From: an uncultured Succinivibrionaceae bacterium
GTDB taxonomy: Bacteria > Pseudomonadota > Gammaproteobacteria > Enterobacterales > Succinivibrionaceae
DNA length: 59,479 nt
NCBI GenBank assembly: GCA_944389835.1
Contig: CALXNU010000004.1
Span: 1 to 59,479 of the forward strand
Direction: 5' to 3'
The notes under the pieces were generated by a model, which worked only from the letters and a program-made list of their open reading frames with translations, did no database searches and had not been told where the DNA came from. The position numbers and the translations under genes were made by a program. Below are positions 17,337 through 25,248 of the stretch, piece after piece; position 1 is the stretch's first letter; every line of letters starts with the position of its first letter.

Positions 17337-17999
17337 TTAGAGATTTCCTAACACAGATTCAAGAATATCATCAGGAGAAGCCTCTTCTGATTCATTTTCC
17401 CCTTCCATGACAGTAAATTCAGTATCATCCATGGCAAATTCAACATAGAAGACATTGTTATCTTGAGTTAGGAAGGTCACACGATTAACTTTTGGCTTAT
17501 CAAGTGTCATATTGATACTAATCTTAACTTCATGAGGTAAAGTTAACATTTTAGGTTGAGATTGCTGAATTCTTGAGTGCAAAGTAGTACTCATGCCACG
17601 GGTAAAATTACCTAAAATTTGATTCATTAACTCACCTAAGGTCCCTGCAACTTCCTCTGAGGTGTAATTAGTGGCTATCTCATTTTCAGGAATGGTCATA
17701 GCTTTCATATAAGTGCTATAAATTTCCATAGCAGCCTCTTTTGGAAAGTTAATTACGACCATACCCGAAAAAGAACCTGTAAATAATACAAATGTGCCAA
17801 TATCAGGACGTAGCGCAGTTTCATTAATACGTTGAATCATGGGCGTATAGTGAATTTTACGAGCTGTGGCTTCTGATAGAACGCTACTTACGCTGTCACA
17901 AAGATAGAGCATGATGTCTTGGCAATTTAAAGTGCGAGAATTTGATTTAATGCTTTCTTGATTCACGATAGAACTCCTTGTATTAATTTTTTCTATCAT
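17337..17999 (-). CDS. DUF3334 family protein (CheC/CheX-like fold)
   Basis: A 220-residue cytoplasmic protein resembling the DUF3334 family found in Vibrio, Shewanella and Aeromonas relatives. Key conserved stretches are DIMLYLCDSVSSVLSEATA, LRPDIGTFVLFTGSFSGMVV and EEVAGTLGELMNQILGNFTR. The last resembles the helix of CheC/CheX phosphatases (ExxN-type, here E-L-M-N), so phosphatase activity on a response regulator is possible. No chemotaxis genes are nearby; the neighbour upstream is the NtrC-type regulator gene. The C-terminal acidic tail is low-complexity. Function is not known. Confidence 0.75.
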   Translation of the reverse strand: MIEKINTRSSIVNQESIKSNSRTLNCQDIMLYLCDSVSSVLSEATARKIHYTPMIQRINETALRPDIGTFVLFTGSFSGMVVINFPKEAAMEIYSTYMKAMTIPENEIATNYTSEEVAGTLGELMNQILGNFTRGMSTTLHSRIQQSQPKMLTLPHEVKISINMTLDKPKVNRVTFLTQDNNVFYVEFAMDDTEFTVMEGENESEEASPDDILESVLGNL

Positions 18000-18134: not shown

Positions 18135-19568
18135 TTAGCGAAGGTTAAGCTCTTTGAGCTTTCTTGTTAGAGTATTGCGACCCCAACCTAGAAGTTTGGC
18201 CGCTTCTTGTTTGTGATTTGAAGTAAAAGATAGGGCAGCCTCAAGCATGACTCTTTCAAACTCTGGGGTAGCTTCAGAGAGAATATCATGCTCTCCGGCC
18301 TTTAATCTGCCATCGACCCAATTTCTAAGTTGTTCTTGCCAAGATGTAGGCTCTCTTGAACTGCCTGTAATTGAGGTGGTGATCCTGTTTTGTAGGTTAC
18401 GCTCTTGTTGGAACTCTGAAGGTAAATCGGTAAGCTGAATATCACGACCTGTGACCATGATAGTTAAATACTTACAAAGATTTTTAAGTTGTCTAACATT
18501 TCCAGGCCAGCTTTGACGACATAAGAAAACTAAAACCTCAGAGGTTAATTTCTTAGGTTCCGTGCCTGTTTCTAAAGCACTTTGCGTTAAAAAGTGTTTG
18601 GCAAGCATTGGAATGTCATTATTACGATCTCTAAGTGGTGGCATATTAATATGAATGACATTTAATCTATAGAAAAGATCTGAAATAAATGTGCCTTCCT
18701 TTACCATTTCTTCAAGATCGCGTGAGGTTGCAGCCACAATCCTCACATTAGTTTTAATAGGATGAGATGCGCCAACTGGTGTGTATTCATTGTGCTGTAA
18801 TACTTGTAGGAGTCTAGTTTGGGCACTCATTGGCATTTCACAAATTTCATTAATAAATAAAGTGCCATCTTTACATCTTTTTAGTGCACAATCGCTAACT
18901 TGCCCATCTTCATTTATTTTGCCAAAAAGATCCGCCTCGACAGTTTCTTGAGGAATTGAGGACATGTTAATTGAGATAAAAGGTAAATCCTTTCTTTCTG
19001 AGTGATTATGCATGGCAACTGCCACAAGCTCTCTTCCAGTTCCTGTTTCACCATGAATTAAAACCGGAACTTTAGTGCGTGAGACACGGCCTATAAATTT
19101 GAAAACTTCCTGCATGGCAGGAGATTTACCAATAATTTCCGCATCTGCATTATCTTTAGACTCTTCAATAACTAAAGGCTCATCACGACGCTTTAGCATA
19201 TTATAACGATGCACAGCAGCACGTCTTATTAAGGAAATTGCCTGCTCAATATCAAAAGGCTTTGGGAGATATTCAAAGGTGCCTTTTTCATATGAATCAA
19301 TGGCGGCAGTTAAATCAGAGTGTGCGGTCATGATGATGACTGGAATATTTGGATCCTTTTCATGAACTTTCTGAATCAAAGTTAAACCATCAACGCCAGG
19401 CATTTTGATATCAGAGACAATAACATCAGGTATCTCACTTTCAAGTGCATTTAGGGCAGATTGACCATCTTCAAATAAACGATGGCTAATACGATTAACC
19501 TCAAGAGCACGATCAAAGACGAAGCGAATTGAGCTGTCGTCATCAATGACCCAAATTTTAGGATCCAT
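18135..19568 (-). CDS. ntrC: NtrC-type nitrogen response regulator with degenerate AAA+ domain
   Basis: A 477-residue partner of NtrB. The receiver domain is intact (acidic residues D9-D11, phospho-acceptor Asp53 in SDIKMP, LPKPFD). The C-terminal Fis-type helix-turn-helix (KQEAAKLLGWGRNTLTRKL) is almost identical to E. coli NtrC. The central sigma-54 activation domain is altered. Walker A reads GETGTGRE with Arg179 in place of Lys. The GAFTGA loop is absent, replaced by a shorter segment (residues 217-233). Walker B reads TLFINE, with Asn240 in place of Asp. The first arginine finger is Ile295. WPGNVRQLKN is kept. The frame is open and the other domains are under evident constraint, so this is not a decaying gene. 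It probably binds DNA normally but cannot act as a standard sigma-54 activator. It lies 12 bp after ntrB. Confidence 0.93.
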   Translation of the reverse strand: MDPKIWVIDDDSSIRFVFDRALEVNRISHRLFEDGQSALNALESEIPDVIVSDIKMPGVDGLTLIQKVHEKDPNIPVIIMTAHSDLTAAIDSYEKGTFEYLPKPFDIEQAISLIRRAAVHRYNMLKRRDEPLVIEESKDNADAEIIGKSPAMQEVFKFIGRVSRTKVPVLIHGETGTGRELVAVAMHNHSERKDLPFISINMSSIPQETVEADLFGKINEDGQVSDCALKRCKDGTLFINEICEMPMSAQTRLLQVLQHNEYTPVGASHPIKTNVRIVAATSRDLEEMVKEGTFISDLFYRLNVIHINMPPLRDRNNDIPMLAKHFLTQSALETGTEPKKLTSEVLVFLCRQSWPGNVRQLKNLCKYLTIMVTGRDIQLTDLPSEFQQERNLQNRITTSITGSSREPTSWQEQLRNWVDGRLKAGEHDILSEATPEFERVMLEAALSFTSNHKQEAAKLLGWGRNTLTRKLKELNLR

Positions 19569-19580
19569 TTTGGGTTATCC

Positions 19581-20663
19581 TCACTTTGATGAAAATTTAT
19601 CTTTTTGATATGGCAAAATTATTTTAAAAATAGTTTTACCAGGCACGCTTTGGCATTCAATCATGCCGTTATGCCGTTCAACTATACTTTGCGCAATTGA
19701 AAGTCCTAAACCATTTCCAGAGGCTCTTGATGTCACCATTGGATAAAACAAGGTTTCTTTAATATTTTCAGGGATCCCAGGTCCATTATCAGTTACGACA
19801 ATCACCAAAGAAGTTGGGATCTTAATTCCGTTTATCCAAGCTCCATGACGAGCTCTAGTTTTAAGTTCAATTGCAGGATGTGGAGTTTTGTTTTCAGTCA
19901 ACGCTTGAACTGCATTGCTTATAATATTAATTAAAGCCTGTTCCATGGCATTAACATCAAGAGGCAATTCAGGTAAAGAAGGATCATAATCTTTTTTAAA
20001 CCTAATCTTACCGCGGGTTTCCATGGTTTCTAAAGACAATACTTTTTCAATTACATAGTGAATATTGCAAAGCGTTAAAGGATTAGGTCTTTGCGGGCCT
20101 AAAAGATTATTGACTAAGGTTTTAAGTCTATCGGCTTGCTCAATAATTACTTTGGTATATTCATGTAAGGCTTGATCTGAGCCATAGGTCATATCAACTA
20201 ATTGAGCAGCCCCTCTAATTCCACCTAAAGGATTTTTAATCTCGTGGGCTAAACTTCTAATTAAATCACGGGCGGCAAGATGTTGAGAGCGTCTTTGTAT
20301 TTCATCATTAATCTTTTGCTGATAATCTACACTGCGACATTCCACAACTAAACCTTTTCCCTTGCCTGAGTAGTGGGCAATAGAAAGATCTGCCGTAATG
20401 CAACGATTAGGTTCTGGAACGAATAAAACCTTTGAGGCAAAAAAGCCTGTTGAGTATGGTTTTGTTGCACTGTAAATTGAATCAATTAAATTTTTTTGCT
20501 CTTTATCTAAAAGGTCAGTAAGTTTTAGTTGTAAAAGTTTACTTCTTGAAAGTAAAAATAATTGTTGTGCTGCAGAATTGGCGTAGACAATACGTAAATT
20601 GCTGTCGGTCAAAAGAACGGCAGTAGCTAGACTTTCTATAAGAGCCTGAGCATCGTATTGCAT
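19581..20663 (-). CDS. ntrB: Nitrogen regulation sensor kinase/phosphatase NtrB
   Basis: A 360-residue soluble histidine kinase. An N-terminal PAS domain (residues 1-110) is followed by a HisKA domain with the H box SLAHEIKNPLGGIRGAAQL (His near 141) and an HATPase domain with N box NIISNAVQAL, G1 DNGPGIP and G2 GNGLGLSIA. It phosphorylates and dephosphorylates NtrC under control of PII. All catalytic motifs are intact, unlike those of its partner. It is the first gene of an ntrB-ntrC operon that is separated from glnA, in contrast to the glnA-ntrB-ntrC order of E. coli. Confidence 0.95.
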   Translation of the reverse strand: MQYDAQALIESLATAVLLTDSNLRIVYANSAAQQLFLLSRSKLLQLKLTDLLDKEQKNLIDSIYSATKPYSTGFFASKVLFVPEPNRCITADLSIAHYSGKGKGLVVECRSVDYQQKINDEIQRRSQHLAARDLIRSLAHEIKNPLGGIRGAAQLVDMTYGSDQALHEYTKVIIEQADRLKTLVNNLLGPQRPNPLTLCNIHYVIEKVLSLETMETRGKIRFKKDYDPSLPELPLDVNAMEQALINIISNAVQALTENKTPHPAIELKTRARHGAWINGIKIPTSLVIVVTDNGPGIPENIKETLFYPMVTSRASGNGLGLSIAQSIVERHNGMIECQSVPGKTIFKIILPYQKDKFSSK

Positions 20664-20947
20664 AACTAGATCTCCACATTTAAATAGCTGTTCAATAATA
20701 GTGCAAAAAACTTAAAAAGTAATTACTAAAACTAAATAAAAATATAAATTGCACTTTTATTGAGCTATATTTTATGGTTTTGGTGCACTAGGTTTAAAGC
20801 TTTGGTGCACCTGTAAAAGCTTGAAAATTGTTTATCTTGGATATTTTGTGTTAAATTTTAGTAAGTTAATTAAATCTTGAGTTTTGCACTAATTTATAGC
20901 TTAAAAATTTATTATAAATTTTCTAAATCTTAGGCTTAGTTTTTATT
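20664..20947 (-). promoter_or_regulatory. ntrBC upstream region with NtrC-like half-sites
   Basis: A 284-bp AT-rich region. On the minus strand the NtrC half-site TGCACCA (plus-strand TGGTGCA) occurs at 20781-20787 and 20803-20809 inside a direct repeat TTTGGTGCAC spaced 23 bp, about two helical turns. A 17-bp element at 20689-20705 (minus strand TGCACTATTATTGAACA) keeps most positions of the NtrC consensus and lies 26 bp before the ntrB start. A further TGCACTA is at 20885-20891. This suggests autoregulation of ntrBC; no -24/-12 promoter was recognised. Confidence 0.5.
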
Positions 20948-23527: not shown

Positions 23528-23838
23528 GGATATTAACCTGTGTTGAAAAAAAATTGCCTGCGGCGGGCGGGTTGCTCATAAAAATTTTGGGCTATTTTAC
23601 CTTAAACAAGCCCACAAATTGCAATTTTGTGCGCAAACTCGCATTATTTTTTTGGATTTTGGAACCTTTGAGCTTAATAAAAATAGAACTATTTGTCCTA
23701 AGATCAATACTTGATAAAAATGATTAAATTTTTTGCTACAAAATGGTGCTTTAAGTCGTTAAGTTTAAGGAGTTTTGGCCTTTGATCTGGTAAAATTATG
23801 CATCATTTTATTTCATGATTTTTGGAGATTAAAAGGTC
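23528..23838 (+). promoter_or_regulatory. glnA promoter region with NtrC-like site
   Basis: A 311-bp divergent region. At 23734-23750 TGCTACAAAATGGTGCT keeps 14 of 17 positions of the NtrC consensus TGCACYANNNTRGTGCA. TAAAAT at 23791-23796 is a good -10 box with no good -35. The NtrC-like site is then centred near -61 of the predicted start (about 23803). TTGGCC at 23775-23780 with TGG at 23788-23790 resembles a -24/-12 promoter, but the invariant -12 GC reads GG. GGAG and AAGG precede the glnA ATG. The typA promoter should be in the left half; it is not assigned. Confidence 0.5.
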
Positions 23839-25248
23839 ATGTCTGTTACCGAAGTTTTAGAGCTTATTAAAGCTGAAGGAGTTAAATTTGCCGATTTACG
23901 CTTTACTGACACTCGTGGCAAAGAACAGCACGTTACTATTCCTGCTAAAGCCGTAACTGAGGATTTCTTCTCAGAAGGTAAGATGTTTGATGGCTCATCA
24001 ATGGAAGGCTGGAAGGGTGTTGATAAGTCAGACATGATCCTAATGCCAGATGTTGAGACTGTACGTCTTGATCCTTTCTATCAGCATCCAACTATTGTAG
24101 TGCGCTGCGATGTTTTAGAAGCCGATACAATGAGTGGTTATGATAGAGATCCTCGTTCTGTTGCAAAGCGCGCTGAGAATTATTTACGTTCCACAGGCAT
24201 TGGTGATGAGGCTTATTTTGGTCCTGAGCCTGAGTTCTTTATCTTTGATGATGTGAGATTCTCCTGTGAGATGGGCAGTGCCATGTATAAGGTTGATGAT
24301 TATGAGGCTGCCTGGAACTCTAAGAAGAAGTATGAAGGCGGTAATTTAGGTCATCGTCCTGGTGTTAAAGGCGGTTACTTCCCAGTACCTCCTGTAGATC
24401 CTTCACAAGATTTACGCTCTGCCATGTGTGAAGTGATGGAGCAGATGGGCTTGGTAATTGAGGCTCACCATCACGAAGTGGCAACTTGTGGTCAAAATGA
24501 AATTGCAACTCGTTACAACACCTTAACTCGTAAAGCTGACGAGGTGATGGTTTATAAGTATGTAGTGCAAAATGTTGCAGATCAATGGGGTAAGACCGTA
24601 ACCTTTATGCCAAAGCCAATTCGTGGCGATAATGGTTCTGGTATGCATTGCCATATTTCAATTGGTCGTGATGGTCAGAATATTTTTGCAGGCAACATGT
24701 ACGGTGGCTTATCTCAAGAAGCTTTATGGTTCATTGGTGGTGTAATTAAGCACGCAAGAGCTTTAAATGCATTTACTAATCCTTCAACTAACTCCTATAA
24801 GAGATTAGTTCCAGGTTTTGAAGCTCCAGTCATGTTAGCTTATTCAGCATCCAATCGTTCAGCTTCAATTCGCATCCCGGTATCACAAAATCCAAAGGCT
24901 GCTCACTTTGAGGTGCGTTTCCCAGATTGCTTGGCCAATCCATACTTAGCTTTCGCAGCTTTATTAATGGCAGGTCTTGATGGTATTTTAAATCGCATCA
25001 ATCCAGGTGATCCTATGGATAAGAATCTTTATGATTTACCACCTGAGGAAGCTGCAAATATTCCACAAGTTTGTGGTTCATTAAATGAAGCTTTAAATGC
25101 TCTTGAAGAAGATTACTCCTTCTTAACAGAAGGTGGTGTTTTCACTGAGGATATGATCAAGGCTTATATTGGAATTAAGCGTGCTGAGGTGGATAAGCTT
25201 CGCACTGCTCCTCATCCAATTGAGTTTGAAATGTATTACTCACTTTAA
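23839..25248 (+). CDS. glnA: Glutamine synthetase type I
   Basis: A 469-residue GSI-beta enzyme that makes glutamine from glutamate, ammonia and ATP as a dodecamer. Visible motifs are the early latch region ([15 protein letters not shown]), [17 protein letters not shown] (Asp50 loop), the metal-binding [11 protein letters not shown], the ATP-site [14 protein letters not shown] and NRSASIRIP. The adenylylation tyrosine is Tyr398 in NLYDLPPEE, implying control by GlnE and PII. It is monocistronic, with two hairpins downstream. The ntrBC genes lie 3 kb away beyond typA and bioD rather than directly downstream. Confidence 0.98.

Follow-up and report, generated by a model that had tools for sequence, protein, structure and literature searches.

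A GAFTGA-less NtrC with altered catalytic residues in Succinivibrionaceae that retain sigma-54

Known GAFTGA-less regulators and the ntrBC locus

EBPs that lack the GAFTGA motif and act with sigma-70 are already known, and include NtrC of Rhodobacter capsulatus and Caulobacter crescentus, Vibrio cholerae VpsR, HupR, TyrR, and DhaR. TyrR, DhaR, and HupR are EBP paralogues that have lost contact with sigma-54 (PMC3162934) and belong to other paralogous families, whereas in the locus described here it is the core nitrogen regulator itself that has been converted. R. capsulatus NtrC resembles the present protein in being paired with NtrB and in the deletion of GAFTGA. According to Bowman and Kranz (1998, as cited in PMC10274813), it activates transcription by the housekeeping RNA polymerase, and ATP binding, but not hydrolysis, is reported as essential (as cited in PMC10274813). 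That protein, however, is alphaproteobacterial and carries a different deletion, and the form found here has substitutions at the Walker A Lys and, in most copies, at the Walker B Asp as well. VpsR is, like the present protein, a gammaproteobacterial EBP homologue without GAFTGA. It acts together with sigma-70 and needs no ATP (as cited in PMC10274813), but it is no orthologue of NtrC, has c-di-GMP as its signal, and is not known as a target of phosphorylation by NtrB.

Caulobacter NtrC also lacks GAFTGA and coexists with canonical activators (PMC10274813). This protein acts at sigma-70 promoters, autorepresses ntrBC, and depends on the Asp that is phosphorylated to activate glnBA fully, and mutation of either Walker A K178 or Walker B D235 abolished growth on ammonium (PMC10274813). 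Its deletion comprises eight residues, in contrast to the net loss of four described below, and the Succinivibrionaceae form goes one step beyond it because both Walker positions are replaced in the protein studied here. Among the papers searched, none combined NtrC with Succinivibrionaceae. What is new is a gammaproteobacterial NtrC orthologue that was converted once, with altered catalytic residues, beside a living sigma-54 system. The family offers a natural experiment, in which canonical sisters with a sigma-54 glnA promoter can be compared with genera in which NtrC and promoter alike have switched while sigma-54 was kept, allowing study of the shift from sigma-54 activator to sigma-70 regulator and of the role of an AAA+ domain after loss of its motor. 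It also makes the annotation "sigma-54-dependent regulator" misleading for NtrC of rumen and gut Succinivibrionaceae.

The window, i.e., the whole stretch of 59,479 nucleotides that was analyzed, comes from an uncultured Succinivibrionaceae bacterium (contig CALXNU010000004.1). ORF calling and domain and profile searches identified in it a GAFTGA-less NtrC variant of 477 aa (18135..19568, minus strand). The protein matches the TIGR01818 equivalog over its full length (563.2 bits vs. a cutoff of 558.6) and, together with the adjoining ntrB, this places it in the NtrC ortholog family; with the narrower PRK10923 model it scored below threshold (555.5 vs. a cutoff of 620). The neighboring ntrB (19581..20663, minus strand) encodes a 360-aa protein with HisKA and HATPase_c domains that passed the NtrB profile model. 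The receiver domain of NtrC (residues 1–120; 19209..19568, minus strand; Pfam PF00072) keeps D53, T81, and K103, as do all 38 derived NtrCs aligned. At the other end, the Fis-type helix-turn-helix (HTH; residues 431–477; 18138..18278, minus strand; Pfam PF02954) has a recognition segment, GWGRNTLTRKLKEL, like that of canonical NtrC, and the HTH is nearly identical between derived and canonical proteins. Domain order, phosphorylation site, HTH, DNA box, and the TIGR01818 assignment are shared with canonical enterobacterial NtrC, from which this derived form differs in lacking the sigma-54 loop and the intact ATPase residues, and in a glnA without a -24/-12 promoter. Directly downstream of ntrC, a 220-aa ORF (17337–17999, minus strand) resembles by eye a CheX-like chemotaxis phosphatase.

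Altered activation and ATPase motifs in eight genera of the family

The changes were located by aligning 38 derived copies from eight genera with 44 canonical ones from the family and the order, including 33 sampled across the order. In the window protein, the Walker A Lys is replaced by Arg179 (GETGTGR; 19032..19034, minus strand), an Arg that is invariant in the derived copies (38/38). Loop 1 is shortened at the GAFTGA position (residues 213–229; 18882..18932, minus strand), where the canonical 21-residue ELFGHEKGAFTGAxxxxxGRF has become the 17-residue DLFGKINEDGQVSDCAL, a net loss of four. Asn240 stands in place of the Walker B Asp (FINEI; 18849..18851, minus strand) and Ile295 in place of arginine finger 1 (FISDLFYRL; 18684..18686, minus strand). 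All these residues, as well as the missing GAFTGA and the loss of about four residues, had been named in a sequence-only reading of the locus and were borne out by the alignment. Hence the window protein lacks the intact Walker A Lys, Walker B Asp-Glu, and pair of arginine fingers of a functional bEBP, while retaining the catalytic Glu241, the second arginine finger R301, the sensor-II R359, and the P-loop glycines.

Loss of the loop and the Walker A Lys-to-Arg change are found together in 38/38 derived orthologues. The Walker B Asp is replaced by Asn or Ser in 37/38 (L036 retains Asp), and arginine finger 1 is replaced in 37/38 (L017 retains Arg), whereas K, D, E, and R are intact in 44/44 canonical NtrCs. 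The absence of the GAFTGA loop from every derived copy upholds the earlier proposal that output to sigma-54 has been lost. That reading had further regarded the ATPase center as dead. The altered catalytic residues agree with it, and ATP hydrolysis by derived NtrC is predicted to be absent, but a dead center is only inferred, since one relative retains the Walker B Asp and another arginine finger 1. Moreover, with Arg179 invariant and with the P-loop glycines, Glu241, R301, and the sensor-II Arg all retained, derived NtrC may still hold ATP or ADP in a structural role.

Scanning of named genomes gave 32 close orthologues, in Succinatimonas, Anaerobiospirillum, Succinivibrio, Candidatus Avisuccinivibrio, and other Succinivibrionaceae, the nearest to the window protein being that of Ca. 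Avisuccinivibrio pullicola (82%). In a survey of 57 Succinivibrionaceae genomes, the derived form occurred in eight genera and canonical NtrC with GAFTGA or GSFTGA in five (g6, g8, g10, g13, and g14), and no NtrC orthologue was found among the genomes searched of genus g12 (G049–G053). In a quick maximum-likelihood search, all derived copies formed one branch inside the family group (SH-aLRT 100; length 1.28 substitutions per site), which indicates that NtrC was converted once in this gammaproteobacterial family. The proposal of an independent conversion holds on this basis. Close sister genera are canonical, which separates the event from the alphaproteobacterial cases; a common origin with alphaproteobacterial GAFTGA-less NtrCs was not supported, judging only from the canonical sisters beside which the derived clade groups within its family.

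Sigma-54 and the promoters of nitrogen genes

The sequence-only reading had suggested that the change in NtrC perhaps came after loss of rpoN. This was ruled out: the genome of the window has an intact rpoN (G000, contig C1) encoding 520 aa with the RpoN box ARRTIAKYRE, and RpoN was found in 41/41 good family genomes. Two canonical activators, of the FleQ/FlrA and FlrC types as judged by eye, remain in the window's genome, and other family genomes retain further EBPs. Thus, as in the Rhodobacter and Caulobacter type, loss of GAFTGA goes with a conserved receiver and HTH and with other canonical EBPs in the cell. Sigma-54 pattern matches were in excess (161 vs. 36 for the reversed pattern), and perfect sites lie upstream of a FliL-like gene and a FlgO-like lipoprotein gene (names by eye). 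Since rpoN, canonical activators, and sites at flagellar genes are all present, the sequences indicate that sigma-54 is now used for flagella and other targets rather than by NtrC. Genome G026, a match to Succinatimonas hippei (L007), encodes an RpoN that is shorter and lower-scoring than in relatives, with only one other strong canonical EBP among the matches listed; on both grounds, sigma-54 may be decaying there.

The glnA promoter differs between the two groups of genera. A -24/-12 element was detected at -70 to -78 from the ATG in canonical g6, g8, g13, and g14 (e.g., TGGCACATTTCTCGCA, TGGCATAAAAATCGCA, and TGGCACGGATTAAGCT), no clear one was seen in canonical g10, and none was found in the eight derived genera, i.e., 4/5 canonical vs. 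0/8 derived (Fisher p about 0.007). The element is also absent from g12, the genus without NtrC. In the window, glnA (23839..25248, plus strand) is preceded by a putative promoter with an extended -10 (TGGTAAAAT; 23788..23796, plus strand) that is conserved in related genera, without -24/-12. A degenerate NtrC box (TGCTACAAAATGGTGCT; 23734..23750, plus strand) is centered about -61 from the inferred start site. The conserved extended -10, TGnTAAAAT, is present at derived glnA of g1, g3, g4, and g5, and glnA of g11 has a TTGACn-17-nAAAAT promoter. Gene order has changed as well: glnA lies less than 4 kb from ntrBC on the same strand in canonical g6, g8, and g14, whereas in the window it stands apart, with typA and bioD in between.

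NtrC boxes were sought with the palindrome TGCACYAnnnTRGTGCA, a strong box having at least 12 of 14 matches in the best 17-mer. Strong boxes were present upstream of 20/35 derived ntrB genes compared with 0.19 in dinucleotide shuffles, and the mean score gave a z of 17.9, although such z-scores overstate significance because related sequences are not independent. These boxes lie about 35–180 bp before the start codon, several of them near or over -10-like elements, and one in Succinivibrio is centered near -38 of an extended -10. In the window, the box-like site TGCACTATTATTGAACA (20689..20705, minus strand) is situated 42 nt upstream of the ntrB start and overlaps a TATTAT -10-like hexamer. 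No -24/-12 element was found upstream of derived ntrB genes. Derived glnA genes have weak boxes, all below 12 of 14.

Of the box-like sites chosen by sequence alone in two derived genomes, most lay between genes (10/15, p 1.5e-5; and 15/20, p 4e-6 with 25% taken as intergenic). Several of them precede genes for amino-acid ABC binding proteins and BrnQ, AbgT, and NhaC-type transporters (names by eye), whose upstream regions showed no sigma-54 element. In G002, contigs C89 and C158 carry perfect boxes within DNA-methylase-like coding sequence, and these are left out of the intergenic tally. In two derived genera, genes for NhaC-family antiporters (L126 and L270) have box-like sites upstream at differing distances. 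Genome-wide, box-like palindromes far exceeded the reversed pattern in g4, g7, and g2 (e.g., 67 vs. 3 and 45 vs. 1), perhaps reflecting an enlarged regulon in these genera. However, such counts do not prove a larger regulon, because g12, which is without an NtrC orthologue, also exceeds the reversed-pattern control, and another factor may be involved in these palindromes.

Domain constraint and the likely mode of action

Identities were compared between derived genera and canonical sister genera of similar overall divergence. The AAA core was less conserved in the derived than in the canonical group (63% vs. 88%), whereas the receiver (78% vs. 72%), lid (81% vs. 63%), linker (64% vs. 42%), and HTH (85% vs. 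73%) were more conserved. Constraint is thus inverted, with the AAA+ core now the least conserved folded domain and the receiver, lid, and HTH more conserved than before. The derived core, with a median dN/dS of 0.195, is relaxed yet still under purifying selection, and the values of 0.07–0.2 for every domain, with a near-invariant receiver and HTH, vindicate the earlier view that the protein is under selection. In AlphaFold modeling with 31 relatives, the AAA core (pLDDT 80–93) resembled NtrC1 (1ny6; Z 25.6, rmsd 2.0 over 172), while the lid fell below a pLDDT of 50, so that the lid and the domain arrangement are unreliable. The constraint pattern and the modeled NtrC1-like fold would fit an AAA core that serves as scaffold, with receiver, lid, and HTH carrying function.

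Given the lost sigma-54 parts and the changed target promoters, derived NtrC most likely regulates ordinary, sigma-70 promoters as a phosphorylation-switched, hydrolysis-incompetent protein. The promoter architecture agrees with the sigma-70 regulator envisaged in the sequence-only reading, in that glnA has lost its -24/-12 element and boxes lie near sigma-70-like promoters. As the sequences show, NtrC of the ancestor shared by the eight genera lost GAFTGA, the Walker A Lys and, in nearly all copies, the Walker B Asp together with arginine finger 1, whereas sigma-54 and its flagellar sites were kept; glnA lost its -24/-12 element and moved out of the ntrBC operon. Under the mechanism that we favor, NtrB would still phosphorylate D53 and thereby alter the oligomeric state of NtrC, the AAA+ core being no longer a motor but a scaffold for oligomerization and relay. 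NtrC~P would bind the same boxes as before, about -38 to -61 from, or over, sigma-70-type promoters, and would regulate the sigma-70 polymerase by ordinary contact or occlusion. Autoregulation of ntrBC is almost surely among its predicted functions, regulation of glnA and of amino-acid or ion transporter genes is probable, and activation at nitrogen genes is likely. A stricter and less probable version is put forward tentatively, in which the scaffold is nucleotide-independent and phosphorylation alone sets the oligomers, a rebuilt lid-linker-HTH contacts the sigma-70 polymerase, the set of promoter-near boxes is enlarged in some genera, and sigma-54 is kept for flagella.

Derived NtrC could instead do no more than repress when phosphorylated, chiefly at ntrBC, preserving the DNA-binding side function of canonical NtrC without any activation. 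The closeness of ntrB boxes to -10/-35-like elements, which they may overlap, the weakness of the glnA boxes, and the autorepression described for the GAFTGA-less NtrC of Caulobacter (PMC10274813) all speak for it. Nevertheless, the distances of about -61 at the window glnA and of 150–260 bp upstream of transporter genes are activator-like, and the raised constraint on lid and linker seems beyond the needs of a bare DNA-binding repressor, so that pure repression is conceivable but less likely. Continued activation at sigma-54 promoters, whether by a different surface of the protein or by mixed rings in which derived NtrC would be a regulatory subunit beside a canonical activator, is very unlikely: canonical activators and rpoN do occur in the same cells, and R301, Glu241, and the sensor-II Arg are retained, but GAFTGA is missing in all copies, the -24/-12 element is gone from glnA and not found at ntrB, and constraint on the AAA core has fallen. 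A joint change of several catalytic motifs might also raise suspicion of gene decay or of sequencing or assembly errors, to which we assign a negligible probability; pseudogene, frameshift, and assembly error are ruled out by the identical changes in 38 separately assembled sequences, isolates included, by family ntrC matches in which no internal stops were found, and by the low dN/dS.

Upstream of the P-II gene, no clear sigma-54 site was seen in most genera, and these regions do not discriminate because this is also true of canonical ones. The amtB upstream regions of four derived genomes were of too little length to serve as a comparison. The window's genome has a second glnA (G000:C2:29512-30918; L090, L134) with 71% identity to the window copy and likewise without a sigma-54 promoter, and two glnA genes occur in several derived genera. 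A single P-II protein is encoded in the window's genome (G000:C8, L229) without amtB alongside, and some genomes of the Succinivibrio group have amtB followed by the P-II gene.
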